DNA from: Cyclobacterium sp.
GTDB lineage: Bacteria > Bacteroidota > Bacteroidia > Cytophagales > Cyclobacteriaceae
NCBI RefSeq assembly: GCF_014762705.1
Contig: NZ_JABURL010000051.1
Span: forward strand, 1 to 64,000
Reading direction: 5' to 3'
Length of the DNA stretch: 64,000 nucleotides
The notes below the pieces were generated by a model. The model made no database searches. It saw only the letters and a program-made list of their open reading frames with translations, and was not told the DNA's origin. A program made the translations under genes and the position numbers. This document shows, in pieces, positions 4,950 to 24,669 of this stretch (positions are counted from its first letter, which is position 1; every line of letters starts with the position of its first letter).

Positions 4950-5052
4950 TGGTCGCTGGCGGACAAATTTGTTCGAAAAAAATGAGCTTTGGTTGCCAAA
5001 ATGGCTTTCAGTGCAAATAGGAAAGGGTTTTATAGATGGCATGTTAATTGGC
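4950..5052 (+). promoter_or_regulatory. Site A: activator site and -24/-12 promoter of the HlyD/ATPase genes
   Basis: The operator at 4950-4975 reads TGGTCG-ctgg-CGGACA-aatt-TGTTCG: three half-sites 10 bp apart. After 61 bp comes TGGCAT-gttaa-TTGGC at 5037-5052, a -24/-12 promoter with the spacing needed for sigma-54. The same arrangement occurs at four other places in the window. It puts the transcript start near 5062 and therefore excludes the TTG at 5048 as the start codon of the adaptor gene. Confidence 0.78.
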
Positions 5053-5071
5053 AAATAGTAGAGGAATTAAA

Positions 5072-6340
5072 ATGATGCTCCAAGAGATGGACAGAAAGCT
5101 TGAAAAAAAAACCTGGACCCCAAAATTGATTGGTATGTTACTCGCAGGAACCCTGGTGGTGGCCTTTGTGCTGTACCAATTGGTTTTTGCAGATGCCCGG
5201 TCCAGTATGAATGTGAATAGGGAACGTATTACCATTGCCACCGTCAAAACAGGAGAATTCACTGATTATATCCCCGTGAGCGGAACCATAGAGCCGGGGG
5301 AAGTTTTCTATCTAGATGCCATTGAGCGGGGAAACATACAGGAGATCATCCGGGAATCAGGCTCCATGGTGGAAAAGGGGGATACCATATTGATGCTGAC
5401 CAATTCCAACCTTCAACTGGAGGTGATGCAACGGGAGACAGATCTTTATTTTCAAATCAATAACCTCAGACAAACCCGGCTGCTTCTGGATCAAAATGAC
5501 CTCAGCCAACAGGCTCAACTCGCCGAAATCGATTATCAGATCAACCTGCTTAAACCACAATATGAAAGGTTCCGGGAATTGCACGACAAAAAACTGATTT
5601 CTGACCGGGAGCTGGAAGAGGTGAAAGAAGAATACGAATACAACTTGAAAAGGCAAAGGCTGACCTACGAATCTTACCGAAACGACTCCATTGCCCGTTC
5701 CATTCAAAAAAGGCAGTTGCGGGAATCGGAGGCAAGAATGAATCAGTCCCTTAACGGGGTGGGGCATATTTTGGATAACCTCCTGGTTAGAGCTCCCATC
5801 ACCGGTCAATTGACCACAGAACAGATTGAAGTGGGGCAGTCCATCAATGCAGGAGAGCGCTATGGACAAATCGATGTTATTGATAAATTTAAGGCCCGGG
5901 TGCCCATAGATGAATTGTATTTGCCCAGGATTAGTACCGGTTTGAAAGGCACCTTTAGTTTCTCAGATGAAACCTTTGAGATGGAAATTTCTAAAATCTA
6001 TCCCAATGTGACCGGAGGGAGATTTGAGGTGGACATGGTCTTTACCGGCAATGCTCCCACCGGAATTCGCCGGGGTCAGACGGTCAGGATAAGGCTGGAA
6101 CTTGGTGAAAGTGAACAGGCCACCTTATTGCCCACGGGTGGGTTTTATAAGGATACAGGGGGGAATTGGGTATTTGTGGTGGATGAAGAAAGTGAAAATG
6201 CGGAAAAAAGAGACATCCGACTGGGCCGGAAAAACCCGGAATATTATGAAGTGATCGAAGGTTTACAGCCCGGAGAAAAAGTGATCGTCAGCGGATACGA
6301 AAACTTCGGTAAAAATGAAGTGCTGAACCTTAATCGATAG
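5072..6340 (+). CDS. HlyD/MacA-type periplasmic adaptor of ABC exporter
   Basis: Starting at ATG 5072 (after GAGGAATTAAA) the protein has about 422 residues: one N-terminal membrane anchor (about residues 20-40), a lipoyl/barrel-sandwich half (IPVSGTIEPGEVFYL), a long alpha-helical hairpin (about 110-220, rich in Gln, Arg and Glu), the second lipoyl half (VRAPITGQLT), a beta-barrel domain and a membrane-proximal domain ending YENFGKNEVL. It bridges an inner-membrane transporter to a TolC duct. The ATPase follows 89 nt downstream. An in-frame TTG 24 nt upstream lies inside the predicted -12 element, so I rejected it. Confidence 0.92.
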   Translation: MMLQEMDRKLEKKTWTPKLIGMLLAGTLVVAFVLYQLVFADARSSMNVNRERITIATVKTGEFTDYIPVSGTIEPGEVFYLDAIERGNIQEIIRESGSMVEKGDTILMLTNSNLQLEVMQRETDLYFQINNLRQTRLLLDQNDLSQQAQLAEIDYQINLLKPQYERFRELHDKKLISDRELEEVKEEYEYNLKRQRLTYESYRNDSIARSIQKRQLRESEARMNQSLNGVGHILDNLLVRAPITGQLTTEQIEVGQSINAGERYGQIDVIDKFKARVPIDELYLPRISTGLKGTFSFSDETFEMEISKIYPNVTGGRFEVDMVFTGNAPTGIRRGQTVRIRLELGESEQATLLPTGGFYKDTGGNWVFVVDEESENAEKRDIRLGRKNPEYYEVIEGLQPGEKVIVSGYENFGKNEVLNLNR

Positions 6341-6429
6341 CACCATACAAAAGTAAAATGGGTAGCAATCCAATTCACAGCCAATACAGCTATTTCCCTA
6401 ATTATAGGTTTAATTCATAAATTAATAAC

Positions 6430-7128
6430 ATGCAAAACATCATCAAAACCAATCATTTAAAAAAGCGGTATACCACTGAAGAAGTAGAAACCACCGCTCT
6501 GGACGATATTCATATCGAAATTAAAAAAGGGGAGTTTGTGGCCATTATGGGTCCTTCAGGATGTGGCAAATCTACCCTCCTGAACATCATTGGTCTGCTG
6601 GACAATCCCGATGAGGGCGAATACCATTTTCTGGAAAAGGAGGTGGCCAAATATTCGGAAAGACAACGGTCACAACTTAGAAAGGGAAATATCGGATTTG
6701 TTTTTCAGAGTTTTAACCTGATAGACGAACTCACCTGCTTTGAAAATGTGGAATTGCCCCTGCTGTACCTTAAAATTCCTTCCGACGAAAGGAAAAAGAA
6801 GGTGGAGGAGGTGTTGACAAGGATGAATATCATGCACAGGAAAAACCATTTTCCCCAACAGCTATCCGGAGGCCAGCAGCAAAGGGTGGCCATCGCCCGT
6901 GCCATAGTGGCCAAGCCGGCAGTAATCCTGGCCGATGAGCCTACAGGTAACCTGGACTCGGCCAATGGGGAGGAAGTCATGCGGCTTTTGGAGGAATTGA
7001 ACAATGAGGGAACCACCATCGTGATGGTCACCCATTCCCCGCATGATGCCAATTATGCCCACCGGATCATCAATTTATTTGATGGTAAAGTGGTGACTGA
7101 AAATATCCGGGAACAATTTCATATCTAG
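6430..7128 (+). CDS. ABC transporter ATP-binding protein (MacB/LolD type)
   Basis: A 232-residue nucleotide-binding subunit with Walker A GPSGCGKST (residues 41-49), Q loop VFQSFNLIDELT, signature LSGGQQQRVAIARA, Walker B VILADEPTGNLD and H-loop MVTHSPHD. This belongs to the family powering MacB, LolCDE and FtsX-type permeases. A full-length permease would be expected immediately downstream, but only a 46-codon relic is found there (7149-7289). Four intact permease genes lacking ATPase neighbours follow within 17 kb, so this subunit may serve all of them. That sharing is inference. Confidence 0.95.
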   Translation: MQNIIKTNHLKKRYTTEEVETTALDDIHIEIKKGEFVAIMGPSGCGKSTLLNIIGLLDNPDEGEYHFLEKEVAKYSERQRSQLRKGNIGFVFQSFNLIDELTCFENVELPLLYLKIPSDERKKKVEEVLTRMNIMHRKNHFPQQLSGGQQQRVAIARAIVAKPAVILADEPTGNLDSANGEEVMRLLEELNNEGTTIVMVTHSPHDANYAHRIINLFDGKVVTENIREQFHI

Positions 7129-7148
7129 TTTACCTCATCCAGAAGACC

Positions 7149-7289
7149 ATGTTCAAAAACCATTTGAAAATCGCGACAAGGGGTTTTGCCAGGTACAAAC
7201 TCACCTTTTCCATTGCATACCTAACGGTAACCTTTCAGGCACTGCATGCTGCCAGAATAAAAGTGGTCGATACTTTAAAAACAGAATAA
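7149..7289 (+). pseudogene. Truncated relic of an ABC permease N-terminus
   Basis: An ORF of 46 codons starts 20 nt after the ATPase stop. Its first residues (MFKNHLKIATRGFARYKLTF) match the opening of the full-length permeases in this window (MWKNHLIIAYRNLRKNKVF, MIKNYIKIALRNLLRDKTF). The homology stops before the first membrane helix is complete, and the ORF ends at 7287-7289. The simplest reading is a permease gene reduced by internal deletion, keeping only the start. A short functional peptide cannot be excluded. Confidence 0.72.
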
Positions 7290-7338
7290 AAAGTACCAAA
7301 GAGGACTTCACAGTAACCTCTTTGATATTTTGGGTTCA

Positions 7339-7542: not shown

Positions 7543-7710
7543 AGCATTACAGATTTTTATAGTAAGTATCGAAAACCAATCTGGCTTTCCTTCTTTATAA
7601 CTAACAACAAAGATTATGCCCTAACTCGTTTATTTTTAGCGGATTGAGTTTATGAGTCTAAGTTTTGTTGACAGACTTTTCACGGAATGGGGTTAAAAGA
7701 GATCAATCTC

Positions 7711-7811
7711 TGTTCGTAACCGGACATTCAGTGTAGTGATCCGAACAGAGGAATCTTTAAACCTTGTTTAGGCGGCCCCTATCAGCGTTTTTAGATTGGC
7801 ACCTTTTTGGT
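7711..7811 (+). promoter_or_regulatory. Site E: activator site and -24/-12 promoter of the GIN-domain gene
   Basis: The operator at 7711-7736 reads TGTTCG-taac-CGGACA-ttca-gtgtag (third half-site degenerate), with a further CCGAACA at 7741-7747. Sixty bases later TGGCAC-ctttt-TGGTA at 7797-7812 fits a -24/-12 promoter. The predicted start near 7821 lies 26 nt before the ATG at 7847. The remaining bases between the dodecin gene and this site (7543-7710) show nothing I can name. Confidence 0.75.
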
Positions 7812-7846: not shown

Positions 7847-8539
7847 ATGAAAATAGGTAACCTACCATTATTGACCTTCTTTCTCGCCCTTGTCAGTTTT
7901 CCTGTAATGAGCCAAAACGTAACAACCAGAAGCCTGGATCCTTTCACCAGGCTTTCTACAGGCGGCAGTTGGGAAGTTATTATCCAGAAAGGGGATCGGC
8001 CCGAGGTAAGGCTGGAATCCAGTAACCTGGATCTTGAAAAAGTGATCACCGAGGTGGAAGACCAAACCCTGAGGGTTTATCTGGAAAAAGGGAATTATAG
8101 AAACATGAACCTCAAGGTATACATTACATTCACTGAACTGGAAGCCATTAGAAACAGCGGGTCAGGAGATTTTAAAAGTCTATCTGCTATTGTGGCTACT
8201 GATCTGGATATCCACGTGTCGGGATCTGGTGATGCCAGTTTCAGTAATCTTCAAGCCCGAAACCTGAATGTAACTCTGAGTGGGTCTGGTGACATGGAAG
8301 TTCATGAGGGGGAGGTAGATGGAATAGAAATAAGGCAATCAGGTTCCGGTGACTTTGAAGGCTTGGACTTGTTGGCGCAGGAAGCTTCAATTCGAACATC
8401 AGGATCTGGTGATACGGCAATAGGAGTTAGTCAGACTATATCTGTCAGGGGCTCTGGTTCAGGGGATGTCTACTACAGGGGAAACCCGGAACGGAGTGAT
8501 GTCAGGTTTTCAGGTTCCGGGCGCCTGACCAAAAGATAA
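7847..8539 (+). CDS. Exported DUF2807 (GIN-domain) protein
   Basis: A 230-residue protein with a signal peptide (about 1-22, ending VMSQ) and a DUF2807 'head GIN' beta-solenoid. The GSG or GSGD turn recurs about every 20 residues (RNSGSGDFKS, HVSGSGDASF, TLSGSGDMEV, RQSGSGDFEG, RTSGSGDTAI, RGSGSGDVYY, RFSGSGRLTK): seven rungs. Such proteins are exported or surface-anchored; their function is poorly known. It is preceded by the same sigma-54-type promoter as the exporter genes and followed after 7 nt by the next ORF, so both probably belong to the envelope response. Confidence 0.9.
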   Translation: MKIGNLPLLTFFLALVSFPVMSQNVTTRSLDPFTRLSTGGSWEVIIQKGDRPEVRLESSNLDLEKVITEVEDQTLRVYLEKGNYRNMNLKVYITFTELEAIRNSGSGDFKSLSAIVATDLDIHVSGSGDASFSNLQARNLNVTLSGSGDMEVHEGEVDGIEIRQSGSGDFEGLDLLAQEASIRTSGSGDTAIGVSQTISVRGSGSGDVYYRGNPERSDVRFSGSGRLTKR

Positions 8540-8546
8540 TGATTCA

Positions 8547-9185
8547 ATGAAAAAAAACATATTTTATTTAGCGAATGGTATTTCAGTGATTTTTATTTCC
8601 TATGAAGTTGTAGGATTGGAATTTGTATGGCTGTTTTTGTGCTTTGTCGCAGTCTTGTTTTTATTTTTTGTTTGGATAATCTCTTACTTCAGAAAAGTCA
8701 AGGGTATTTGGATTCAAATACCATTACGGTTAATTGGCATTTGTATTATTGGAGTGCTTGCATCATTATTCAGGCCCTATGAAGATTCGGCCCATTCTTT
8801 GGGCACTGAAAGGGAGCAATTGGAAAATGCCTATGTTACGGACCAGGCGGATAGAAAATATTTGAAATCCTATATCCCCTTTTTAAGTGGATTGAAAGAC
8901 AGGGATCAATCAAGGCTTAACCAGGTTAAAAGTATTTATGAACGGAATAAAAATCTGGACCCAATTGAAAAATTCTATGCTGCTTTTATCTTCCACCATA
9001 GCGCTGATAGCAAAGATTATAAAATAGCTTCAAAATTGGCTTCAGAAGCGGCAAAAGCCCGACACCTACAGAATCATTATCTGGTCCATTGGCTGAAAAA
9101 GGCAGCCTATGACCGGTGGATGGTATCGATGGGAAAACCAGAAAAGTACAATACCCAAAATAAATTCAGTATCGAAATCGATTGA
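8547..9185 (+). CDS. Membrane protein of unknown function
   Basis: A 212-residue protein with three hydrophobic segments near the N-terminus (about 5-22, 24-47 and 55-75), then a soluble helical domain of about 130 residues rich in Lys, Asp and Tyr, which could be a short TPR-like helical repeat (KFYAAFIFHH, ASKLASEAAKARHL). It begins 7 nt after the GIN-domain gene and is probably co-transcribed with it from the -24/-12 promoter at 7797. I do not recognise a named family. Confidence 0.75.
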   Translation: MKKNIFYLANGISVIFISYEVVGLEFVWLFLCFVAVLFLFFVWIISYFRKVKGIWIQIPLRLIGICIIGVLASLFRPYEDSAHSLGTEREQLENAYVTDQADRKYLKSYIPFLSGLKDRDQSRLNQVKSIYERNKNLDPIEKFYAAFIFHHSADSKDYKIASKLASEAAKARHLQNHYLVHWLKKAAYDRWMVSMGKPEKYNTQNKFSIEID

Positions 9186-9299: not shown

Positions 9300-11735
9300 C
9301 TATTCACTACGCAAAGATTTCACTGGATTCGCTAAAGCAGCCTTAATGGCCTCCTTGCCAACGGCCAACCAGGCTACCAGTAAAACCAATCCTCCTGCAG
9401 CCAAATAGGTCCAGATGGAAATATCTATCCGGTAAGCAAAGCCTTCCAACCATTGGTTCATCAGCCACCAGGAAATTGGGAAGGCAATGAAGGCTGACAA
9501 AAGCACCAACTTTATATACTCCCTGGAAAGCATGCTCACAATGGTGGATACATCCGCACCAAGAACCTTTCGGATTCCGATTTCCTTATTGCGTTGTTTT
9601 GCGGTAAACATAGCCAGCCCAAATAAGCCCAAACAGGCAACAAAAATGATCAAGCCTGAAAATACCATCAGGATGTATCCCATCCTTCGTTCTGCCTGAT
9701 AGGTTTGGTAATACCTTTCGTCCAAAAATGAGTACGCAAAGGGCTCCTCTGCAGCGAGTGTATTCCATTTCAATTTGATATCCTCCAGTAAGTTTCCTGG
9801 CTCATCGGTGTTGATCCTGGCGATGACAGCTCCATGACGGTTACCTTTCACCATTACCAATGGAAAGATGCGTTCATGCAGGGACCTGAAATGGAAATCT
9901 TTCACGATGCCAATGACCTGGTAATTTGTTTGGTTTCCCTCATTGTCATGGTGGGAAAGGGTCTTGCCCAGTGCATCTTCCTCCCAATTCAATGCCCGGG
10001 CCGCAGTCTCATTCAGAATAATGGAGGTTTGTTCGGAGCCAAATGCGTCCGAAAAATTTCTACCAGCTTCCAATTCCATGCCCAGGGTGGGTATGTAATC
10101 GGCATCTACATCATACCTCAAGGTTTTCACTTGCCTGCGGACGTCGCCATCCGGATACAAAAAGAAATTATTATTGAAGGATGGCCCTGAAGGCAGATAT
10201 CCTGAAATACTTACGTTGGCGACTCTTGAGTCCTGAAGCAGCTGTTGCCGGAATGCTTCAGTATTGTTTCCCAGGTACCGGGCATCTGGAAAAATCAAAA
10301 CCTGATCTTTGTTGTAACCCAGGTTTTTATTTTGGATAAATTCCAGTTGGTTGTAAACCACGATTGTGCCCATAATCAGTATTACAGACACGGCGAACTG
10401 GAATGTGACCAATCCGCTGCGCAAACTAAAGGATCGTTTGCCCATTCTGCCTGAGCCTGGGAAAAAGGACCCTTTCAGTACGGAAACAGGCTTGAAAGTA
10501 GAAAGGAAAAAAGCCGGATATATGCCGGCAAGTATCCCTACCATCAGTCCAAATAAAAGCAGGGCGGGTACAGTCCATAAGTTGGAAAAATACTGAATGT
10601 CTATGTCTTTTCCTGCAAGGTTATTAAATACGGGCAGCGATAATTTTACCAATGTCATGGCAATTAACAGTGCAAAAAGGCTCAATAGGGTGTATTCGGC
10701 CAGAAATTGCCCAACAAGTTGCTGCTTTTCTGACCCAAGTATTTTTCGAACACCCACTTCCCGGGCCCTTTTGCCGGCACTTGCTGTGGAAAGGTTGATG
10801 AAATTGATGCTGGCAATCAGGATCATAAAAAGGGCAATGGCCCCGGAAATGTAGATATACCTGATGTCCCCACCCGGTCCCAGTTCGCCCATCAAGTCAG
10901 AATGCAAATGAATGGAAGTGAGTGGCTGCAGGAACATGCCTATATTGTTTCCATCTTCCTTGAATTGATTGTAACTGATTCCCATGGCTTCTTCCAACTG
11001 TGGGCCCATGTATTTTTCGGCTACATGGGGAAGTTTAGCTTCCAGGTGTTTGTAATCATAGCCGGGTTGAAGCAATAGATAGGTATAAAATTCTGAAACC
11101 ATCCAGGATGGGTTTTTGGCTGGCGGGAAGGTCGCCATCGAAGCCAAAAGGTCAAAATGAAAATGGGAGTTGGCCGGCATATCTGCCATGACTGCCGTAA
11201 CGGTGAACAGGGCCCCGTCATCCCCGATCAACAGCTCTTTTCCAATTGGGTTCTCCCCCTTAAAATAGGTTTGTGCAGTAGATGCAGAAATGACAATGGT
11301 GTGGGGTTCTTTTAAAGCCTGAGCCGGATTCCCCTGGATCAATGGAAAGGTAAATACCTGGAAAAAATTGGCATCTGCAAAGGCAGCTGGTCTGTTTCGG
11401 AAAGCGCTGTTTCCGTAAATAACTTTTGGATTTCCCATTTTACGGATACGGGTAGCCTGCTCCACCTCAGGATAATCTGCCTTCAGGGCAGCTGCTACCG
11501 GGGGCATGACATGAGCTTCATTCATTGTTCCCCCCTGTACGGATCCACGAAAGACTACCCGAACAATGCGGTCTGCCTTGTCATGGAAACTGTCATACCC
11601 CAACTCGCTGATTATTGAAAGTAGGATCAGCAGGCAGGAGGCCATCCCAATGGCCAGCCCCAATATATTGATCGCAGTGAAAGTTTTGTCCCGAAGCAGA
11701 TTTCTTAGCGCAATTTTAATGTAGTTTTTTATCAT
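9300..11735 (-). CDS. ABC transporter permease, MacB/FtsX fused type (paralog 1)
   Basis: About 811 residues, counted from the second Met (11735); the upstream ATG at 11741 adds two. It has one N-terminal helix after the MIKNYIKIALRNL opening, a MacB-type periplasmic domain (about 45-240), three FtsX helices (about 285-420), another helix and a second periplasmic domain (about 440-670), then three final FtsX helices with AMFTAKQRNKEIGIRKVLGA, and the tail NPVKSLRSE. Such duplicated permeases lack their own ATPase gene. A type-B operator and -24/-12 promoter lies upstream (11881-11980). Whether it exports a substrate or performs mechanical work in the envelope cannot be seen. Confidence 0.93.
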   Translation of the reverse strand: MIKNYIKIALRNLLRDKTFTAINILGLAIGMASCLLILLSIISELGYDSFHDKADRIVRVVFRGSVQGGTMNEAHVMPPVAAALKADYPEVEQATRIRKMGNPKVIYGNSAFRNRPAAFADANFFQVFTFPLIQGNPAQALKEPHTIVISASTAQTYFKGENPIGKELLIGDDGALFTVTAVMADMPANSHFHFDLLASMATFPPAKNPSWMVSEFYTYLLLQPGYDYKHLEAKLPHVAEKYMGPQLEEAMGISYNQFKEDGNNIGMFLQPLTSIHLHSDLMGELGPGGDIRYIYISGAIALFMILIASINFINLSTASAGKRAREVGVRKILGSEKQQLVGQFLAEYTLLSLFALLIAMTLVKLSLPVFNNLAGKDIDIQYFSNLWTVPALLLFGLMVGILAGIYPAFFLSTFKPVSVLKGSFFPGSGRMGKRSFSLRSGLVTFQFAVSVILIMGTIVVYNQLEFIQNKNLGYNKDQVLIFPDARYLGNNTEAFRQQLLQDSRVANVSISGYLPSGPSFNNNFFLYPDGDVRRQVKTLRYDVDADYIPTLGMELEAGRNFSDAFGSEQTSIILNETAARALNWEEDALGKTLSHHDNEGNQTNYQVIGIVKDFHFRSLHERIFPLVMVKGNRHGAVIARINTDEPGNLLEDIKLKWNTLAAEEPFAYSFLDERYYQTYQAERRMGYILMVFSGLIIFVACLGLFGLAMFTAKQRNKEIGIRKVLGADVSTIVSMLSREYIKLVLLSAFIAFPISWWLMNQWLEGFAYRIDISIWTYLAAGGLVLLVAWLAVGKEAIKAALANPVKSLRSE

Positions 11736-11880
11736 CGTCAACAGCTAATGATTTTCTTTCAACTCAAGTTTAGCCTCCCTTATCTCTTTACCAACTTAAC
11801 AATAGGCAGCTCATTCATGATTAACCGACAACTTTTGTTAAGATCTGCTACTGCCTTAGCGAGGCTTGCAATTTATCATA

Positions 11881-11980
11881 TCTACTTCCATACCAGTAAA
11901 AAACATCTCCAAACAGCTGTTAAGGGCTGAAGTGGCTTTTTTGTGCTTTTTTATCGTACATTGTTGTTCGCTGGCGGGCA
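11881..11980 (-). promoter_or_regulatory. Site B: activator site and -24/-12 promoter of permease 1
   Basis: Read on the minus strand, the operator (11980-11955) is TGCCCG-ccag-CGAACA-acaa-TGTACG. After 59 bp comes TGGTAT-ggaag-TAGAT starting at 11895. The -24/-12 segment is nearly the same as that of permease 4 (TGGCAT-ggaag-TGGAA). The leader to the permease start is about 130 nt. The divergent gene at 12131 begins 150 nt from the operator, but I see no matching promoter on that side. Confidence 0.72.
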
Positions 11981-13325: not shown

Positions 13326-13517
13326 ATGCGAACGAATATTGAATTGGACGATGAACTTGTTCAACAGGCACTGAAAATCAGTAAATTAAAGACAAAGAAG
13401 GATATTGTTCACGAAGCATTGAAACAATATGTGGCTTCGTTGAAAAAAAAACAGTTATTGTCACTTCGTGAGAAGAATACGTGGATCGGTGATTTAGGGC
13501 AAATGCGGGAAGTATGA
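13326..13517 (+). CDS. VapB-type ribbon-helix-helix antitoxin
   Basis: A 63-residue protein opening with the RHH strand MRTNIELDDELVQQAL, then the helix KTKKDIVHEALKQYVASL, and a basic C-terminal tail that should bind the toxin (LREKNTWIGDLGQMREV). This is the DUF2191/VapB type. Its stop overlaps the start of the PIN-domain gene (ATGA, 13514-13517), the usual coupled layout of type II toxin-antitoxin pairs. The dimer would bind the upstream dyad. Confidence 0.9.
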   Translation: MRTNIELDDELVQQALKISKLKTKKDIVHEALKQYVASLKKKQLLSLREKNTWIGDLGQMREV

Positions 13518-14837: not shown

Positions 14838-15206
14838 ATGTTGCCTGAGAAGATTCTTAGGAATAATCCTTTGTCACTTATCTCCACTAATCCAGAAATA
14901 TATCATGGTACACTCAATAATCGTGGTACAAGATATGTAGTGTCTGCGATACTTGAATATCTTGAAGAAGGAGGAGGTTTAGATAAAATATTGGAAGAAT
15001 TCCCGGATTTAATTGGTGAAGATATTTTGGCCTGTATCGTGTATGCTTTGGCTTCCATGCAACCCAAAGACAGCTATTCGCTTCGCAGCGATTTAACAGG
15101 GTTTTCCAACGCTGTTTTTACCGTTTGCAGGGTCACAGTGAAAAATGCGACAAGAAATACCAGCAAAATAGGCAATAGCAAAATCCTCCAGTGGATATCC
15201 ATCTGA
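14838..15206 (+). CDS. DUF433 antitoxin-like protein running into a permease gene
   Basis: From ATG 14838 the first 75 or so residues are a complete DUF433 domain (ISTNPEIYHGTL..., RGTRYVVSAILEYLEEGG, GEDILACIVYALA). The frame then runs on for about 44 residues, antisense to the 3' end of the permease at 15074, overlapping it by 133 nt. Normal DUF433 proteins end near the point where the overlap starts. The usual DUF5615/PIN-like partner is absent. It looks like an orphan antitoxin whose original stop and partner were replaced by the permease gene. The GTG at 14817 is a less likely start. Confidence 0.6.
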   Translation: MLPEKILRNNPLSLISTNPEIYHGTLNNRGTRYVVSAILEYLEEGGGLDKILEEFPDLIGEDILACIVYALASMQPKDSYSLRSDLTGFSNAVFTVCRVTVKNATRNTSKIGNSKILQWISI

Positions 15207-17515
15207 TAGGCATAATTTTGAAGCCAGCTTTTCAAGATAAAATAAACGAGCGGCAAGGTCATGACACTGGCTGCGGCGATCAGCAGGAAAAAATCCTTTG
15301 AAAGTAAGGTGATGATATGTATCATTGAGGCTCCGAGCACTTTGCGGATACCGATCTCTTTGGTTCGTTGTATGGTCATGTAAGAGGCAAGACCAAACAG
15401 TCCCAGGCAGGCAATTAGGATGGCGAGACCGGCAAAAAGACTGAAAATTCTTGCAAAATTTTGTTCGGATAGATACTGATTGTTGAAGTAATCGTCGAGA
15501 AAAAAGTATTCAAAAGGACTATTTGGAAAGGCTTTTTCCCAAATTAGCTTTATTTCGCTTAAGGCTGTAGTATAATCATGGGAACGTATTTTCAGAGAAT
15601 AATACTCCCCCGCCCAGGGCGCATTGAGGTATTCCTTTAGTGCAAATACCATCGGTACCACTTCCTTATGAAGCGATTCCTGATTAAAGTCCCTGATCAC
15701 TCCGATAATTGTTTTGGCATGTTTATCTTCGTCAGATTCATGCCAGATAATGGTTTTTTGGGTGGCCTCTTCCGCATTTTTGAAACCAAGCTGGCGCATT
15801 GCAGTTTCGTTTAAGATCAAATTGCCACGGTCAGAAGTTACTTCCCGGGAAAAATTACGGCCTGCAAGGAAATCAGCGCCGTATAATTGAAAAAAATCTT
15901 CATCAATTGCGATGATATTTATGCCTTTGCCGCTTTCCGGCTGTGCGGGATGGTAAAACTGCCTCGCCCAACTCAGTTCCTTTCCGGGGATGCTTGAGGA
16001 AACGCTTGCATCTTGAATGTGGGGAAGCTTGCTCACTTCGTTCTTGAAAAAAACCAGATGCTGTTGATAAGTCGAATCTTTTATTCCCGGTCCTTTTACT
16101 ATCAGTGTTTGCTCCATATTCAATCCTTTATCCTGCTCCTTCATAAAGCTAAGCTGCTGGCGTACCCCCAAGGTACCGGCAATAAGGGCGATAGAAGCAG
16201 CAAATTGGAATACGATCAGTGCTTTCCTAATGGGGACACCCTGACTTGGGTTTTTTAAATGGCCCTTAATCATTTGTAAAGGTTGGAAAGATGACATGAT
16301 GTACGCAGGGTATAGGCCCGATAAAATAGTGCCTGTCAAAAACAACGCAGCTACCCCAATGCTTAATGCTGTAGATGGAGTGGGAGAAAAACCTACTTTT
16401 GTAAGGTTTTGGAAAATGGGCATCATGAGATGCGAAATTGCAATAGCCAAAATAGCGGCTAGTCCGTTGAGCAGGAAAGAACCAGTCATAAATTGAGCGA
16501 TCAATTGTCCTTTACTGGATCCCACCACTTTTCTAATGCCCATTTCTTTCGCCCGCTCAACAGATTTGGCAATGGTCAGGTTCACGTAGTTGATCCAGGC
16601 GATAATTAAAATAAAAATAGCAATAAGGGTAAGGAACCGAACCATGTTTCGGCTTCCGTTGGGTTCAGCCTCGGCCTCCAGGTGGGAGTCCAGGTGGATG
16701 TCTTGTATGGGCTGTAGATTTAGCGTAGAGGTGTAACCTGAATTGCGCCATTCGGTCAAACTTTCCCCCAGATACTTTTCCATTACATCTAAAAACTTCC
16801 CTTCAACTACGGCCAGATTGCTCTGAGGAGTTAGTTCCACGTAATTGTAAAAATTGCCCCAATCCCAGTTATCATCCAGGTTCCAGGGAATCGAATTAAA
16901 AGAGATGATAAAATCAGTATGCACATGGGAGTTATCGGGAATATTTTCAAATATTCCGCTAACCTTTAATTGGGTATTTCCCCGGTCACCCATATAAAAG
17001 GTAAGTTCTTTTCCCAGACCATCCTGCCCCGGAAAATACTTATCTGCCATCTCCATGGATATGACCACGTTGTTAGGTTGGGTAAGTGCCTGATCCTGAT
17101 AGCCATGAACCATTTTATAGGAGAACAGGTCGAGAAATGCCGCATCTGCATAGTACACCTTGTCTTCATGAAAACTCCGCGCATCTACCTGCATCACCGG
17201 GTCTGACATCAGTGGGCCGCTATGGACCAATCGCGCACTGTTTTTTACTTCGGGAATTTCCCTGAGCAGGGCAGGGGCAAGTGCAGGGACTGTTTGCGCC
17301 CTTTTTCCGACCATTTCACCATTGAGATAGGCATAATCGACAACCCGGTAGACTGACGGTTTGCGGAAATCATCATAACTCAGTTCAAAGGTAACATACT
17401 TCAGAATAAGCAGACCCGCTGCCATCGCAATGGCCAGTCCCACAATGTTGATAATGCTGAATACCTTGTTTTTCCTAAGGTTGCGGTAGGCGATTATTAG
17501 ATGATTTTTCCACAT
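15074..17515 (-). CDS. ABC transporter permease, MacB/FtsX fused type (paralog 2)
   Basis: 813 residues beginning MWKNHLIIAYRNLRKNKVF. It has the same layout as the other permeases here: helix, MacB-type periplasmic domain, three FtsX helices (with ERAKEMGIRKVVGSSKGQL), a second periplasmic domain, three FtsX helices (MTIQRTKEIGIRKVLGASM) and the tail NPVKSLRSE. A strong operator and -24/-12 promoter lies at 17622-17723, the best sigma-54 match of the five. Its 3' end overlaps the DUF433 ORF on the other strand. Pairwise similarity to the other permeases is obvious at both FtsX motifs but low in the periplasmic domains. Confidence 0.93.
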   Translation of the reverse strand: MWKNHLIIAYRNLRKNKVFSIINIVGLAIAMAAGLLILKYVTFELSYDDFRKPSVYRVVDYAYLNGEMVGKRAQTVPALAPALLREIPEVKNSARLVHSGPLMSDPVMQVDARSFHEDKVYYADAAFLDLFSYKMVHGYQDQALTQPNNVVISMEMADKYFPGQDGLGKELTFYMGDRGNTQLKVSGIFENIPDNSHVHTDFIISFNSIPWNLDDNWDWGNFYNYVELTPQSNLAVVEGKFLDVMEKYLGESLTEWRNSGYTSTLNLQPIQDIHLDSHLEAEAEPNGSRNMVRFLTLIAIFILIIAWINYVNLTIAKSVERAKEMGIRKVVGSSKGQLIAQFMTGSFLLNGLAAILAIAISHLMMPIFQNLTKVGFSPTPSTALSIGVAALFLTGTILSGLYPAYIMSSFQPLQMIKGHLKNPSQGVPIRKALIVFQFAASIALIAGTLGVRQQLSFMKEQDKGLNMEQTLIVKGPGIKDSTYQQHLVFFKNEVSKLPHIQDASVSSSIPGKELSWARQFYHPAQPESGKGINIIAIDEDFFQLYGADFLAGRNFSREVTSDRGNLILNETAMRQLGFKNAEEATQKTIIWHESDEDKHAKTIIGVIRDFNQESLHKEVVPMVFALKEYLNAPWAGEYYSLKIRSHDYTTALSEIKLIWEKAFPNSPFEYFFLDDYFNNQYLSEQNFARIFSLFAGLAILIACLGLFGLASYMTIQRTKEIGIRKVLGASMIHIITLLSKDFFLLIAAASVMTLPLVYFILKSWLQNYAYQMDIHWRILLLPILLVFLVAFFTVTLQTVKTALENPVKSLRSE

Positions 17516-17621: not shown

Positions 17622-17723
17622 TGCTACATCTGTGCCATCGAAAAAAGTACTAAAACGGCTGGAATGCTAAATTCTACCAAGTTATAGAAAATCAATTCGG
17701 ACAAAACCGTCCGTTTTCGGGCA
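17622..17723 (-). promoter_or_regulatory. Site D: activator site and -24/-12 promoter of permease 2
   Basis: On the minus strand, the operator (17723-17698) reads TGCCCG-aaaa-CGGACG-gttt-TGTCCG. After 60 bp comes TGGCAC-agatg-TAGCA at 17637-17622, close to the sigma-54 consensus TGGCAC-N5-TTGCA. The leader to the start codon is about 95 nt. The rest of the 447-base gap up to 17962 shows no gene. Confidence 0.8.
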
Positions 17724-17962: not shown

Positions 17963-18574
17963 TCAATTGATTTCAGCGAAAAATGCCTCCAAATCCAACT
18001 CAAATCCTGGGATAGCCGAGGATATTGCGGTATCCCCTAAAGTCATCAGGCGAGTTGGCTGATAGTGGCCCTGAATCAACCGGTATATCAGGAGGGTCTG
18101 TCCTTCGGGATCCATCAACCAATATTCTTTTACTCCGGATGTTTCATAAACCTCGTACTTATTTTGGAGTTCCAGCTGTTTGTTGCCTGGTGAAAGGACT
18201 TCCACCACCAGGTCAGGGGCACCGATGCAACCCCTGTCGTCCAGCTTTTCCATATCACATACCACACAGATATCCGGCTGTACAACCGTGAAAATTTTAT
18301 CGTCTTTTTTTGAATTTACCGGAAGCCGGACATCAAAGGGAGCAATATAGGCCTGGCATTTTTTACCTTTCAAAAACAGATGAAATTCCGTATAAAGGGT
18401 TCCAGCCAAACTTTGATGAATTCTCTTTGGAGCTGCGGCGGCTTTTTTGAATACTTTTCCTTTGATCAGTTCGACCATCTCCTCCATATCCCAGGTCAGG
18501 TAATCCGCATAGGTATAGTTCCCGTAGCTCAAATCGGGTTCTTTCAGCAGAGATTTGCTAACCTTTTTTTCCAT
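17963..18574 (-). CDS. Uma2 family (DUF820) endonuclease-like protein
   Basis: A 203-residue protein with the PD-(D/E)xK-like core of the Uma2/DUF820 family: AYIAPFDVRLP, VVQPDICVVCD, GAPDLVVEVLSPGN, then KYEVYETSGVKEYWLMDPE. These proteins are abundant in cyanobacteria and Bacteroidota, and their role is unclear. It has its own AT-rich leader and sits between permease 2 and the second RHH/PIN pair. Catalytic acids look intact. I see no sign of truncation. Confidence 0.88.
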   Translation of the reverse strand: MEKKVSKSLLKEPDLSYGNYTYADYLTWDMEEMVELIKGKVFKKAAAAPKRIHQSLAGTLYTEFHLFLKGKKCQAYIAPFDVRLPVNSKKDDKIFTVVQPDICVVCDMEKLDDRGCIGAPDLVVEVLSPGNKQLELQNKYEVYETSGVKEYWLMDPEGQTLLIYRLIQGHYQPTRLMTLGDTAISSAIPGFELDLEAFFAEIN

Positions 18575-18792: not shown

Positions 18793-19044
18793 ATGAAAAC
18801 GAAATTGACTTTAACCGTAAACAAAAGCATCATAGATGCAGCAAAAAGGAGAGCCAAAAGTCGAGGGATTTCCCTTTCCCGGATGTTTGAGGAGATTTTT
18901 GAAGAAGAGGGATCCTACGAAATAAAGACTGAGCAACAAAGGGCAGCAGAGCGATTGCTTCAACTGCTTGAAAATTCCGGCAGTATACCAACGAAAGATG
19001 ATAAAGCATTAATTAAATCGCATGTTAAAAGGAAGTTTGCCTAA
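18793..19044 (+). CDS. DUF6364-type RHH antitoxin
   Basis: An 83-residue protein with an RHH-like N-terminus (MKTKLTLTVNKSIIDAAKRR, then GISLSRMFEEIFEE) and a C-terminal half that should wrap the toxin. The next gene, a PIN-domain protein, starts 23 nt before this gene ends. Upstream (18751-18785) the sequence is AT-rich with palindromic words around tacgta and acgtac, possible operator half-sites. It differs from the first antitoxin in length and family, so the two pairs are not recent duplicates. Confidence 0.85.
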   Translation: MKTKLTLTVNKSIIDAAKRRAKSRGISLSRMFEEIFEEEGSYEIKTEQQRAAERLLQLLENSGSIPTKDDKALIKSHVKRKFA

Positions 19045-19456
19045 TGTATTTCTGGATACGGATGTGGCTTTTGATATTATTTCAAAAAGAGTTCCCCATT
19101 TCGCAGATGCAGCTAAACTGCTTGAATTGGCAGCTAAAGATCAACTGGCACTTCAAATTGCTGAAAGTAGTGTAGCAAACCTTATTTATCTGTCATATGA
19201 CATATATAAATTACAGAAAGCGTCTTCAAGACTATTGCATTTTATGGGTGCCTGTAATATAGTTATTGCCGGTAAACCTGTTTTGATGGAAGCTTTGGCA
19301 TCTCAATTCAAGGACAAAGAAGATGCACTTCAATATTATACGGCACTTCATTCTGGTTCGGATTATTTCATCACCAGAAATACCAAAGACTATATGTTTT
19401 CTTCGCCTTCACTTCCTGTATTTCATCCAAGAGATTTTTTGACCCAAATTTATTGA
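19022..19456 (+). CDS. PIN-domain toxin (VapC-like)
   Basis: A 144-residue PIN protein: NVFLDTDVAFDIISKR with the first Asp pair, ESSVANLIYLSYDIY with Glu, KDKEDALQYYTAL with the central acids, and SDYFITRNTKDY at the C-terminal metal site. The fold and length fit the PIN proteins paired with DUF6364 antitoxins. It overlaps its antitoxin by 23 nt, so translation is probably coupled. It ends 78 nt from the convergent permease 3 gene. Confidence 0.88.
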   Translation: MLKGSLPNVFLDTDVAFDIISKRVPHFADAAKLLELAAKDQLALQIAESSVANLIYLSYDIYKLQKASSRLLHFMGACNIVIAGKPVLMEALASQFKDKEDALQYYTALHSGSDYFITRNTKDYMFSSPSLPVFHPRDFLTQIY

Positions 19457-19534: not shown

Positions 19535-21979
19535 CTACTCGGTGCGTAAGGACTCAACAGGATTTTTAAGGGCGGCTTTCAGGGTTTGTGAGCTTACGAT
19601 GAGGACTGCGATCAGCAAGGTAATCACTGCTGCCCCGGCAAATATCCACCAGTCCAATTCAATTCTGTAAGCAAAGTTTTCCAACCAGCGGTTCATGCCA
19701 TACCAGGCAATTGGACTGGCTATGGCAAATGCGATCAGTACCAATTTCACGAAATCCTTGCTGAAAAGGGTCAGGATACCTGTGACATTCGCCCCCATCA
19801 CCTTGCGAATACCAATTTCCTTGGTACGTTGCTGTATGGATACGGATATCATTCCAAGCAGCCCCAGGCTGGAAAGCAGAATACTCAGTCCGCCAAATAC
19901 CAGGCTCAGGGTCAAAGCCTTCCGGTCATCTTTGTACAAGCGGTCAAATTCTTCATCGAGGAAAGTATATCTGAAAGGATGCTCCGGGGTAAATTCCTTC
20001 CAAACTTTTTTGGCGTGATCCAGGGCTTGAGGTGCTGCACCTGCATTTACCTTCACCAAATAAGAGGAGGCCCCATATGGATCAAGGGAAAAAACAATGG
20101 GATCGATTTGTTCATGAAGACTCTTGTGATGATAGTCTTTGACTATCCCAATTATTCTTCCGGTTTCTTCCGACCCTGTTCGGTATGATATAGTAGAAAA
20201 TGAAGTACCCACAACAGGTTCCTGAAGCCCAAAAATTTTAACAGCTGTTTCATTAATGATAAGATTGTTGAGGTCTACGGTATTTTCCGCTTCAAACCAG
20301 CGACCCGAAACCAGGGTCAGGTTTGCCAATGCAGCATAATCTTCATCCGCCCAGATAATAACGGCATCAGTTGGTTCTGTTGGTTTGGGATAGCCTGACC
20401 AGGAAATCTCAACAGGCTGATTCCTTTTGTCATCCAGGATGGAAGTACCATTTACCTGGGAAACAGTCTGGATGGCACTATTTGCCAGCAACCGGGCTTT
20501 AATGCTATTGACCCGGCTCCTGTGGCGTTCCTTTGCCTCAACGTCACCAAACCCGAACCCCAAAGGCAAGGGCACATGTAACCTGAATACCTGTTCCTTT
20601 TGGTAATGATCGGTTTGCTGCTGAATGAATGTAAATTGATGGTGGACCGTAACGATTCCAATGAGCATTACTATGGTAAAAATAAGTTGGCCGGTTACCA
20701 GCCCCTTTCGGAAATGCTGCCGGCTTATCCCTGTCAAAACCTGGTTTTTTAACAAACCTATAGGCTTCAATGTAGCTAGTACCATTGCGGGATAGAGGCT
20801 GGTCATGATAAAAACCAATGCAACCACCCCAAAAATTAACAACAATACATGATGGTCCATCAGGTTGAGCACAAGGTTTCTTTCTACAAATGCATTGAAT
20901 TCAGGAAGCAACAAGGAAACCAGTAACAAGGTAAGCCCTGAAGCCATGGTGATGGAAAGAAAGGTTTCCACCATTGCCTGGATAAATAGGTGCTGTTTAG
21001 AGGCACCCACTGTTTTCCGTATCCCGATTTCCTTTATCCGGCTACCAATCCTTGCAATGGACAGGTTGACAAAATTGACACTGGCTACCGCAAGCAGTAA
21101 AACGGCAAGAATAGAAAAAACCCAAAGATTGAGGGTGTTTCCATGGGGAATGATTTGATCCAGAAGCCCTTTTTCAAAATGTAAATCTTTCAGTGCCACC
21201 AATTTTGTTCGCCTGGGAGAATCTGCCATCCATGGTGGCCTATTACTGGCTATGATTTCCGCTATTTTTTTCTCCGCTTCCTCAAGTGATGCGCCCGGGT
21301 GTAACTTTAAAATCAAAATTTGTGAAAATATGCCCCATGATGCTGTGTTTTCAATACCCCCCTTGGTTTCTTTATAAATGGAATTTGAAACAAGGACGTC
21401 CTGCTGGAAAGAGGAATTGGCGGGAATGTCCTCGATAATTGCAGCAATGGTATAGGGTATAGAATCGATGTATAGGGTTTGTTGTAAGGGGGGCAGGTCT
21501 CCAAAATATTGGGCGGATTTGGACCTGGTAAGGATAACCGTACGGGGATGATTGAAAAAATAATCCAGGCTTCCCTGGTAGACCTTATAGTCGAACATGT
21601 CTATCCAGTCCCTGCCAACGATCAGCCCATTCGACTCTTTAAAGGATTGCCCATTAATTTCTATAACTTTTCTGCTCAGGTCGGTGCCCGCAGTTGTTAT
21701 TTGTTCTATTTCAGGAATAGTTTGCTGAATGGCCTCGTAAATAGGGTAAGATGAAAAGCCATTAAATGTGTATTCCGACTTGATGGTGTCAATATCTGCC
21801 CGCAAATATATACGGTCGGTATCGGGATGATAAGTATCAAAGCGCAGCTCATTTTGGCTCCAGAGAAGAATCAGTACAGCAGCGGCCATGGCTGCAGACA
21901 GCCCTCCTATATGGATGAGAGAACTTATTTTGGTTTGCCAGAGGTAGCGAAAGGCGATTTTAAAGTAGTTTTCTAACAT
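19535..21979 (-). CDS. ABC transporter permease, MacB/FtsX fused type (paralog 3)
   Basis: 814 residues starting MLENYFKIAFRYLWQTK. It has the same domain order as the others, with FtsX motifs SRIKEIGIRKTVGASKQHL and QQRTKEIGIRKVMGANVTG, and the tail NPVESLRTE. No operator of the shared type is found in the 146 nt before it, so it is probably transcribed together with permease 4, which lies upstream on the same strand. The gap between the two is CT-rich and AT-rich on the plus strand and holds nothing else I recognise. Confidence 0.93.
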   Translation of the reverse strand: MLENYFKIAFRYLWQTKISSLIHIGGLSAAMAAAVLILLWSQNELRFDTYHPDTDRIYLRADIDTIKSEYTFNGFSSYPIYEAIQQTIPEIEQITTAGTDLSRKVIEINGQSFKESNGLIVGRDWIDMFDYKVYQGSLDYFFNHPRTVILTRSKSAQYFGDLPPLQQTLYIDSIPYTIAAIIEDIPANSSFQQDVLVSNSIYKETKGGIENTASWGIFSQILILKLHPGASLEEAEKKIAEIIASNRPPWMADSPRRTKLVALKDLHFEKGLLDQIIPHGNTLNLWVFSILAVLLLAVASVNFVNLSIARIGSRIKEIGIRKTVGASKQHLFIQAMVETFLSITMASGLTLLLVSLLLPEFNAFVERNLVLNLMDHHVLLLIFGVVALVFIMTSLYPAMVLATLKPIGLLKNQVLTGISRQHFRKGLVTGQLIFTIVMLIGIVTVHHQFTFIQQQTDHYQKEQVFRLHVPLPLGFGFGDVEAKERHRSRVNSIKARLLANSAIQTVSQVNGTSILDDKRNQPVEISWSGYPKPTEPTDAVIIWADEDYAALANLTLVSGRWFEAENTVDLNNLIINETAVKIFGLQEPVVGTSFSTISYRTGSEETGRIIGIVKDYHHKSLHEQIDPIVFSLDPYGASSYLVKVNAGAAPQALDHAKKVWKEFTPEHPFRYTFLDEEFDRLYKDDRKALTLSLVFGGLSILLSSLGLLGMISVSIQQRTKEIGIRKVMGANVTGILTLFSKDFVKLVLIAFAIASPIAWYGMNRWLENFAYRIELDWWIFAGAAVITLLIAVLIVSSQTLKAALKNPVESLRTE

Positions 21980-22125
21980 GCTAATAGTAGTTATGATTGT
22001 TGACTAACTCAGGCATTAATTTTCAGTTGCACCCATCTCTCCATTATCCATCACCATATCTCCAACTCACCCGATCTCTGATCTCTCATTCTCCAATCCT
22101 AAATCAGAACTCATAAATCATCCAA

Positions 22126-24486
22126 CTACTCACTTTTCAGCGTCTCAGCTGGATTGGCCAGTCCTGCTTTGATCGCCTGGGCGCTTACTGTCAATAAGGC
22201 AATCAAAAGTGTCAAGCCACCGGTCCATAAAAACAAGGACCAATCAATGGTAGTCCTGTAAGCAAATGTCTCCAGCCAGTCGCTCATAAAATACCAGGTA
22301 AGCGGGATGCCTATGATCACGGAGATTAGCACCAGTTTGGTGAATTCAGAAGAGATCAACGCCACCACACTGCCAATTGATGCACCCATTACTTTCCTAA
22401 CAGAGATTTCCTTTTTTCGCCGGTCTGCTATATAGGTTGCCAATCCAAAAAGCCCCATACAGGATATTATCCCGGCCAGGCCTGTAAACAAGGATGTCAG
22501 CCTGGCGGTACGCTCCTGGGATATGAATTTGCGGGCATGCTCCTGATCTACAAATCGGTATTCAAAAGGGGAATCGGGATTGAATTTATTGAAAATGGTC
22601 TCTACACTGGCAAGCGAATTCAAATAATCAGCTGCTTCTTCAAAACGAATATGGATGAAATTCAGGTCGCGTTTGGGCCCCATTACCATGATCGGAGATA
22701 CTTCATCAAAGGGAGATTCCACAATAAAATCCTTTACTACGCCCACAATGGTAAAGAAATAGGCATCATCCTTGACCACCTGACCTATGGGGTCCTCAAA
22801 CCCCATCACCTCAACCGCTTTTTCATTGACGATTGCCGAAAGGCTATCACTGGCATAGGAATAAATATCAATATCCCTTCCCGCGATCAATTCCATTCCG
22901 GCTGTTTTCACCAGGTTTGCATCTGTTCCCATGCGACTGATATTTGGCTTGTATTCCGGGTCTTTGCCTTGCCATTCCATTCCATCTGTGTCGCTGTAAA
23001 TATTGGTTAAGGGAGAAAAGGTATAGCTGACCTCGGCTACCTCCGGAAGGGCCAGCAATTCAAGACGAAGTGCCGCTTTATTCTTTCTTATACTTTGGGT
23101 TACCGGATGAAAAATCAGATTCTCCTTATCCAATCCCAAATCTCTGTTCTGGACAAACCTCATCTGATCCTGCACAATCCACACACAGGATATCAGGGTG
23201 ACCACAACGGCAAACTGAAAAACTACCAAAACCTCGCGAGCATTCCATCCAAAGTTACTCCTTGTTTTCATTTGGGATTTAAAAACTGCTGTGGGATGGT
23301 AAGCACTTAACAAAAATGCCGGATAGCTACCTGCCAGTACCCCTGTCACGAAAATATAAAAGGCAGAAATCCCCCAAAAGTAGGGTTGGGTAAATGGGTT
23401 GGGCAATTCCTGGCCCACCAAACCCTTAAACCAGGGAAAAGAAAGGGATACAATGGTGATGGCCAGCAAATAAGCGGTGAATGCAATGAATACAGATTCG
23501 GCAAGAAATTGGCCAATTAACATGCCTTTGCCTGCACCGGAGATCTTCCGGATCCCCACTTCTTTGGACCGTTGGTCACTTTGGGCGGTACTCAGATTCA
23601 CAAAGTTAATCGCTGCAAGTACCAATACAATGATGGAGACGATGCCAAACATCCGGATCATTTCGATTTTTCCCCCTACAGACTTTCCATTTTCGAATTT
23701 GGAATAAAGGTGAAGATCACGAATAGGAAAAAGAAAATCAGAAATGTCTTCCAGGTCGGAGTTGCTGGCAGTGAAGTCCGCAAACTTCTGATTGAATGAA
23801 GCGGGATCAGCATGCTCATTTAATAAGGCAAAGGTCCGGTAGGAATTATTGCCCCAATAATCATCTGCCCAGCCCATGGCTTCCAGCTTCTTGAAAGGTA
23901 AAAAAACAGTAAATGGGAAATCGGTATTTTCCGGCAAATCCCTGATTACAGCTTTTACTTCAAAATCCAGTTGCTTGGCTACCGAGACTCTTTGGCCTAA
24001 AGCTGTATCCTCCCCAAAGAGCTTTCTGGCCACCGAGGCTGTCAAAACGATATTTCCCGGTTCGGCCAAAGCAGCGACCGGATCTCCTTCAAGTGTTTCG
24101 AAACTAAATATTTTAAAAAAACCGGGATCAGTAAATGTGGCTTCTTCGTAAAAATTATTTTCACCCACAGTTAAGAGTTGCTGGTCCCATTCTGTGATCC
24201 TGGCTACTTCTTCCACCTCGGGAAACTGCGCTTTCATGGCTGGGGCATAGGGAGCTGGTGTATAGTCCCAGGTTGATACCTGGCCTTGCATGGTTGCATT
24301 TCTCCAGACAGCATATATCCGATTGGAATTTTCATGAAAGCGGTCGACAGACATCTCAAACTGCACCCAGATAAGTATGAGAATAGAAGCGGCCATGCCG
24401 ATCCCCAGTCCGGCAATGTTTATAAATGCATATCGCTTACTTCTGCTGATGTTTCTCCAGGCGATTTTAAAATAATTTTTCCACAT
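22126..24486 (-). CDS. ABC transporter permease, MacB/FtsX fused type (paralog 4)
   Basis: 786 residues, opening MWKNYFKIAWRNISRSKRY and ending NPAETLKSE, slightly shorter than its paralogs. FtsX motifs are QRSKEVGIRKISGAGKGML and DRRKKEISVRKVMGASIGS. It is the first gene of a likely two-permease operon with paralog 3. An operator and -24/-12 promoter lies at 24569-24669. The gene in front, on the same strand, is a TetR regulator whose stop is 289 nt away, so a separate promoter is expected. Confidence 0.93.
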   Translation of the reverse strand: MWKNYFKIAWRNISRSKRYAFINIAGLGIGMAASILILIWVQFEMSVDRFHENSNRIYAVWRNATMQGQVSTWDYTPAPYAPAMKAQFPEVEEVARITEWDQQLLTVGENNFYEEATFTDPGFFKIFSFETLEGDPVAALAEPGNIVLTASVARKLFGEDTALGQRVSVAKQLDFEVKAVIRDLPENTDFPFTVFLPFKKLEAMGWADDYWGNNSYRTFALLNEHADPASFNQKFADFTASNSDLEDISDFLFPIRDLHLYSKFENGKSVGGKIEMIRMFGIVSIIVLVLAAINFVNLSTAQSDQRSKEVGIRKISGAGKGMLIGQFLAESVFIAFTAYLLAITIVSLSFPWFKGLVGQELPNPFTQPYFWGISAFYIFVTGVLAGSYPAFLLSAYHPTAVFKSQMKTRSNFGWNAREVLVVFQFAVVVTLISCVWIVQDQMRFVQNRDLGLDKENLIFHPVTQSIRKNKAALRLELLALPEVAEVSYTFSPLTNIYSDTDGMEWQGKDPEYKPNISRMGTDANLVKTAGMELIAGRDIDIYSYASDSLSAIVNEKAVEVMGFEDPIGQVVKDDAYFFTIVGVVKDFIVESPFDEVSPIMVMGPKRDLNFIHIRFEEAADYLNSLASVETIFNKFNPDSPFEYRFVDQEHARKFISQERTARLTSLFTGLAGIISCMGLFGLATYIADRRKKEISVRKVMGASIGSVVALISSEFTKLVLISVIIGIPLTWYFMSDWLETFAYRTTIDWSLFLWTGGLTLLIALLTVSAQAIKAGLANPAETLKSE

Positions 24487-24568
24487 GATGCCTAATGTTA
24501 ATGCTTTAGTCCCCTAAATAAAACTCCATTTCAGGTCAATTTACGGTTTTATTTCAGAGCTAACTTGT

Positions 24569-24669
24569 TCCACTTCCATGCCAGTCCAAAACCCTGCATT
24601 TTTGCTGAAAATGTAATGTTGCCATTCATTCACGAAAGTAATTCGAACAAAAATGTGCGCAAGCGGACA
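24569..24669 (-). promoter_or_regulatory. Site C: activator site and -24/-12 promoter of permeases 4 and 3
   Basis: On the minus strand, the operator (24669-24644) reads TGTCCG-cttg-CGCACA-tttt-TGTTCG. After 60 bp comes TGGCAT-ggaag-TGGAA from 24583. The leader to the permease start is about 75 nt. Confidence 0.75.

Follow-up and report, generated by a model that had tools for sequence, protein, structure and literature searches.

A predicted sigma-54 regulon of transporter genes in Cyclobacterium, with a three-half-site operator at a nearly constant distance from its promoters

Do genes scattered over one bacterial locus answer to a single activator, and why would its operators carry an odd number of half-sites? 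These questions are raised by a stretch of 64,000 nucleotides from Cyclobacterium sp. (hereafter the window), the first part of contig NZ_JABURL010000051.1 (C17) in a 6.08-Mb genome. A sequence-only reading of the window had claimed that genes for an HlyD-type adaptor with its ATPase, a GIN-domain protein and three permease units share five operators of the form TGTYCG-N4-CGGACA-N4-TGTYCG, with three half-sites 10 bp apart and a -24/-12 promoter some 60 bp further on, next to a gene for an NtrC-type regulator. We consider it very probable that these sites are the enhancers of one sigma-54 regulon under that adjacent regulator, which would bind as dimers on the half-sites, about 60 bp from the promoters.

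The operator pattern was matched in the window at 4950, 11955, 17698 and 24644 with 1, 3, 2 and 1 mismatches, against 0.04 matches expected, and none of 100 shuffles contained four. The claimed layout of three half-sites in 10-bp steps thus stands for these four operators and fails for the fifth, at 7711, which was not recovered by this search and has two half-sites, a poor third one and a CGAACA at 7742-7747 that lies 1 base off the position of a fourth. On the promoter side, the proposed gaps of 61, 60, 59, 60 and 60 bp were all reproduced, and the sigma-54 layout TGGYAY-N5-TNG is present at all five sites, the -12 part reading TTG only at the 4950 site and TNG throughout.

The same geometry recurs in relatives, as predicted. 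In 80 loci fetched by their regulator (1.6 Mb, spanning several genera) we found 122 operators at up to 2 mismatches, and 107 of the 108 exact promoters within 130 bp, a search with no other limit on distance, lie 59-62 bp from the operator (4 at 59, 15 at 60, 32 at 61 and 56 at 62 bp, with the remaining one at 74 bp). When the operator was allowed up to 3 mismatches and the promoter, sought solely at 55-65 bp, up to 1, 126 operator-promoter units were counted in 77 of the 80 loci; the three-half-site unit was not found in the other three, one Zixibacteria and two Aminicenantes contigs, in which dyads are nonetheless present. A dyad or dyads upstream of a promoter at a constrained distance is the arrangement of an enhancer site of an NtrC-type activator, and it is seen here. 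Two bases beyond the imposed pattern are conserved as well, a T directly 5' of half-site 1 and a T 7 bases ahead of the -24 element (80 of 84 distinct operators in each case), and position 4 of TGGC is C in 79 of 84 distinct sites of relatives; the -12 G in the 84 sites was fixed by the construction of the search, and the C next to it is mostly missing. Repeats of this kind might be a by-product of permease duplication together with upstream DNA and have no regulatory role, for the permeases are paralogous and some sites stand in tandem. We regard this as very improbable, in that the unit also stands ahead of HlyD, ATPase-TolC and Toastrack genes, and the half-sites and promoter are kept across units and genera while spacers and flanks vary.

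It is the promoter, required at the correct distance, that makes the operator specific: a strict pattern of operator and TGGCA at 59-62 bp gave 46 exact matches, spread over 27 of the 148 family genomes, and its reversed control gave none in the same 148. This combination also serves as a search handle for further members. In the genome of the window, the operator with CGRACA as its middle half-site had 8 matches at up to 2 mismatches (reversed control, 2), and four further operators lie beyond the window, one on contig C118, two on C77 and one on C34. The dyad alone was rejected as a handle, being rarer than its control (27 versus 46 places), and the exact dyads on C10 and C100 had no promoter within about 130 bp on each side.

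The strict matches follow the regulator. The protein encoded next to the first operator combines a receiver, a sigma-54-interacting AAA+ domain and a Fis-type helix-turn-helix (HTH), which makes it NtrC-type as the sequence-only reading had it, and is 99% identical to its counterpart in Cyclobacterium plantarum. A strict match occurs in 22 of the 28 family genomes whose regulator is at least 82% identical to it, versus 5 of the other 120. With units in 77 of the 80 loci centred on it, this regulator is the likely activator and is predicted to bind the sites, and the constrained spacing, the genes downstream and the co-occurrence with the regulator all bear out the proposal of one sigma-54 regulon.

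The number of half-sites had been called unusual for an NtrC-type protein, and relatives offer a simple account of it. We retrieved the regions upstream of 40 orthologues sharing 64-77% identity (a subset of a longer list) and of four further loci, and 32 of the 44 qualified by an anchor of half-sites 1 and 2 (up to 2 mismatches) plus promoter; the loci L138, L139 and L144, from outside the family, fit badly and were left out of the count. Half-site 3 matches at 5 or more of 6 bases in 31 of the 32, and a fourth half-site at the same stringency in 27 (control offsets: mean 0.4, largest 6), giving the consensus TGTYCG-N4-CGRACA-N4-CGTTCA-N4-TGAACG, again in 10-bp steps. The promoter lies 70-74 bp past the first dyad in 29 of the 32, which matches its position in the window. 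Operators of the window's clade have TGTTCG as half-site 3, and a fourth half-site was not detected among 84 distinct ones (z -0.5 at +30); the five of the 32 that lack it include L195 and L196, the genomes nearest that clade. Because regulators of 64-77% identity mostly have four half-sites in register, the most plausible reading of the three is a two-dyad enhancer in reduced form, in which half-site 4 would have been lost, not gained, and that of the 7711 site is one that kept half-site 4 and lost half-site 3. A four-half-site enhancer would thus have become a three-half-site one with its promoter distance constant within about 3 bp, and the four-half-site layout supports two dimers two helical turns apart.

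A single dimer could instead sit on half-sites 2 and 3, an A/T-centred palindrome (CGRACA-AWTT-TGTYCG), with half-site 1 as an extra: in the 84 distinct operators the 2-3 spacer is A/T-rich and the 1-2 spacer is not. This arrangement is unlikely in our view, as half-sites 3 and 4 of the relatives are symmetric to each other (CGTTCA-N4-TGAACG) and form another pair next to 1-2, and the 2-3 spacer of these operators is unconserved (half-sites 1-2 served as the anchor, which partly imposes their own strength); moreover, the Zixibacteria and Aminicenantes loci have 1-2 and a poor half-site 3. The operator also has parallels among the sites of known activators. NifA sites have the frame TGT-N10-ACA. 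Half-sites 1-2 of the window fit this frame, and NifA is described with a single palindrome (PMC6296734; for this and the other articles cited, statements refer to the parts of the text available to us). CbrB has three subsites on one face of the helix, as here, which unlike those of the window are non-palindromic and have centres 20-25 bp apart (PMC6296734). The predicted site of the Desulfovibrio vulgaris sigma-54 activator DVU2956 contains three conserved half-sites and binding was seen by gel shift (PMC4641369). Like the regulator of the window, DVU2956 is divergent from its target and its targets are annotated as transmembrane transport, and unlike it DVU2956 is a one-component protein without an N-terminal domain; no half-site letters are given in that text, and a mutated site was assayed there as well (PMC4641369). 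The odd number, real at four of the sites, need not imply a new binding principle, given the four half-sites of the relatives and the DVU2956 precedent.

Several points weigh against a single regulon under this one regulator. The bare operator at up to 3 mismatches occurs 14 times in the whole genome and its reversed control 13 times, which is the level of chance. Fisher's test gives p 2.5e-16 for the association of regulator and operator, a value that overstates independence in related genomes (the 28 with a close regulator probably form one clade), and 6 of these 28 have no strict match, the strict pattern only having been used. Loci chosen by the regulator bias the targets towards its neighbours, and the related gene first downstream of the 126 units (77 times HlyD, 35 times a permease and 12 times an ATPase, with none for 2 units) comes from a classification that sees only relatives of 13 window proteins, some of which begin several hundred bases away. 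Twelve of the 44 upstream regions fell off the anchor: seven (L202, L206, L209, L213, L216, L219 and L229) have a different operator spacing of 52-53 or 95 bp, three (L207, L208 and L230) gave weak matches and two (L205 and L233) none. Lastly, contig C92 encodes a paralogue beside a kinase (locus L155, 8449-9828), NtrC-type and 61% identical to the window regulator, whose recognition helix (TRASLYRRLEKYGL, versus TRSSLYRRLERYGL in the window) is near-identical, such that it could bind the same sites. If it bound the operator mainly or jointly, the regulon would answer to another sensor or to two, and a TGTCCG-N4-TGAACA dyad does lie upstream of the paralogue itself. That seems improbable to us, since in 77 of 80 loci the unit stands ahead of HlyD and next to the window's regulator, the strict matches go together with genomes that encode a close orthologue of that regulator, and a search of 14.9 kb around the paralogue gave no relatives of the adaptor, the ATPase, TolC or the permeases.

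The genes behind the sites are those described earlier, as Pfam confirms (Table 1). A TTG-start open reading frame (ORF) listed at 5048 overlaps the first promoter, and the in-frame ATG at 5087 (MDRKLEKK, homologue-like) is likely the true start of the adaptor. We fetched 30 of the 46 strict matches, including the window's own at 4950 and excluding two overlapping opposite-strand matches without a promoter, and found a permease behind 12, HlyD behind 9, an ATPase behind 5 and none of these behind 4. One of these four, in a relative (L105), precedes a Toastrack gene of the DUF4097 family, and for L095, L119 and L120 the downstream genes scanned had no Pfam match (L119 via its L120 homologue, of the same genus). 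The genome of the window has a DUF4097 gene too (L190); the dyad ahead of it is followed after 63 bp by a promoter and has an additional TGTCCG upstream.

Table 1. Features of the window discussed here
Feature	Position	Strand	Evidence and details
TolC-family outer-membrane protein	104..1429	+	Pfam
Histidine kinase	2041..3471	-	HATPase_c, hydropathy; a pair of hydrophobic stretches near the N-terminus, with a short loop
NtrC-type response regulator, proposed activator	3389..4861	-	PF00072, PF00158, PF02954 above cut-off
Operator, three half-sites	4950..4975	+	Pattern scan; TGGTCG-N4-CGGACA-N4-TGTTCG
Sigma-54 promoter, ahead of HlyD	5037..5050	+	TGGCATGTTAATTG; gap 61 bp from operator
HlyD-type adaptor	5087..6340	+	Pfam; best NCBIfam match DarC, under cut-off (199.5/450)
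ABC ATPase	6430..7128	+	Pfam; best NCBIfam match DarD, under cut-off (287.6/375)
Operator variant	7711..7747	+	Dyad TGTTCG-N4-CGGACA (7711-7726), decayed half-site 3, CGAACA
Sigma-54-like promoter, ahead of GIN/Toastrack gene	7797..7810	+	TGGCACCTTTTTGG; 60 bp past the 26-bp operator frame
GIN/Toastrack (DUF2807) protein	7847..8539	+	Pfam; signal-peptide-like start by eye
Duplicated MacB/FtsX permease A (ADOP/DarB-like)	9300..11741	-	Pfam, NCBIfam
Sigma-54-like promoter, ahead of permease A	11882..11895	-	TGGTATGGAAGTAG; gap 59 bp
Operator	11955..11980	-	Pattern scan; TGCCCG-N4-CGAACA-N4-TGTACG
Duplicated permease B (ADOP/DarB-like)	15074..17515	-	Pfam, NCBIfam
Sigma-54-like promoter, ahead of permease B	17624..17637	-	TGGCACAGATGTAG; gap 60 bp
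Operator	17698..17723	-	Pattern scan; TGCCCG-N4-CGGACG-N4-TGTCCG
Duplicated permease C	19535..21979	-	Pfam; 146 bp past D
Duplicated permease D, first gene past the 24644 operator	22126..24486	-	Pfam, NCBIfam
Sigma-54-like promoter, ahead of permeases D and C	24570..24583	-	TGGCATGGAAGTGG; gap 60 bp
Operator	24644..24669	-	Pattern scan; TGTCCG-N4-CGCACA-N4-TGTTCG

MacB_PCD has 22 matches in this genome, among them seven mutually similar permeases of about 800 residues, with four in the window, a single one on C77 and a tandem pair on C34. All seven lie behind operators (11955, 17698, 24644, two on C77 and C34:134820), permease C by way of a transcript presumably shared with permease D, as no operator of its own was found (the closest match within the 281 bp scanned has 7 mismatches). 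Orthologues of permease A in C. plantarum (L009), L013 and L083 are also preceded by an operator. The genome scans at up to 2 and 3 mismatches reported no operator near an 867-residue MacB-type protein or seven of about 400 residues; the 867-residue protein, on C34, is encoded next to an ATPase gene, and its comparison with the window permeases gave no match at E 1e-5. Relatives of the window ATPase were absent from 12.5 kb around the C77 permease and 28 kb around the C34 pair. At the C77 permease (L156, C77:26000-38500), two tandem operator-promoter units (8231-8863) lie ahead of the one gene, with an 87-codon ORF between them, past the distal unit. The best NCBIfam matches of the adaptor, the ATPase and permeases A, B and D are to the darobactin exporter DarBCD and to ADOP, the three permeases matching ADOP first and DarB second; all scores are under the cut-offs (ADOP, TIGR03434, 254-297 bits versus 622.3; DarB 102-136 versus 700; DarC and DarD in Table 1). 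The window TolC probably belongs to the regulon as well, a membership drawn across a contig break: in C. plantarum an operator and a second ATPase gene precede a TolC 95% identical to it, and the matching operator and second ATPase end C118 in this genome.

What might the regulon respond to? Intramembrane-sensing kinases have two transmembrane helices and a loop under about 25 residues. In the window kinase a separate sensor domain was not seen, Pfam giving HATPase_c only, and by a crude rule its orthologues have exactly two hydropathy peaks in 54 of 78 cases, with estimated loops of 2-16 residues, and not in the other 24. The kinase would phosphorylate the regulator upon envelope stress, or in response to transporter activity itself; a first regulator dimer would then occupy half-sites 1-2 (TGTYCG-N4-CGRACA) and a second one would sit on the same helix face, two turns further downstream, held by half-site 3 alone because half-site 4, the other half of this dyad and conserved in relatives, was presumably lost here. 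The AAA+ ring would reach the sigma-54 polymerase some 60 bp away, downstream, and open the promoters, and from the predicted transcription starts the adaptor, the ATPase, the second ATPase with TolC, the seven duplicated MacB/FtsX permeases and the GIN/Toastrack proteins would be expressed. With less force, we propose as the function a response to cell-envelope stress or antimicrobial peptides, in which permeases lacking an ATPase gene of their own would be expressed together with one ATPase, adaptor and outer channel for all. A further possibility, which we put forward tentatively, is a modular exporter, in which many ATPase-less duplicated permeases, expressed as a set, plug into one ATPase-adaptor-TolC chassis and the kinase senses transporter activity within the membrane; if true, it would account for the "orphan" label of ADOP-type permeases.

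To our knowledge, sigma-54 has no part in the BceRS-BceAB system. There, in Gram-positive bacteria unlike here, a kinase without an extracellular sensing domain is paired with antimicrobial-detoxifying ABC transporters (PMC7828314), and the window kinase, with its two hydrophobic stretches and very short loop, may resemble such membrane-sensing kinases beside ABC transporters. DUF2807 and DUF4097 have been united as Toastrack and tied to envelope stress, and the PspF and Lia systems, like the window, join NtrC-type or two-component control with Toastrack partners; the same article argues for an intracellular Toastrack, whereas the GIN protein of the window begins like an exported one (PMC11237479). 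In Bacteroidia, sigma-54 promoters are enriched ahead of COG0577 FtsX/MacB permeases, by its authors' account the first such link (PMC12316311); promoter class, permease class and phylum are those of the window, and, unlike here, no activator or operator was seen in that article, 'UAS' and 'upstream activat' being absent from its main text. Flavobacterial sigma-54 promoters are treated in PMC9723704, in the available parts of which HlyD is unmentioned. We dropped the toxin response of P. vulgatus as a precedent, its regulon depending on a different sigma/anti-sigma pair (PMC9308784). The operator was not described in the literature searched (titles and abstract openings, with subscription journals mostly outside coverage), nor did Cyclobacterium and sigma-54 combined give a match there. 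Three-half-site operators of sigma-54 activators and the link of sigma-54 to FtsX-type permeases are thus already published, and the present analysis adds a candidate activator and an operator for that link in Bacteroidota, along with how the operator varies in relatives and which genes make up the predicted regulon. The latter would tie orphan permeases at scattered sites to one ATPase, adaptor and channel that they share.

Some variant sites may be recorded here. A fourth half-site in register is present at L013 9718-9753, L039 4625-4660, L119 1501-1536 and L120 1558-1593, where matches on both strands overlap. The seven loci with 52-53 or 95 bp spacing have the promoter TGGCAYAGTGTTCGTA, with a TGTTCG that overlaps the -12 region, and the four examined (L202, L206, L209 and L213) precede an HlyD-like start. 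The Zixibacteria and Aminicenantes contigs, from metagenome-assembled genomes (MAGs; L084, L085 and L087), share the gene order of the window (kinase, regulator, HlyD, ATPase), with regulators 60-63% identical and similar dyads, a second ATPase being encoded in L085 and L087 and several permeases in L084. In the window itself, genes for PIN (13514-13921), ERCC4 (14084-14764), Uma2 (17963-18574) and PIN_3 (19022-19456) proteins are interspersed among the permease units, and adjacent GH95, sulfatase and alpha-L-fucosidase genes at 25626-30806 suggest a fucose-polysaccharide locus.

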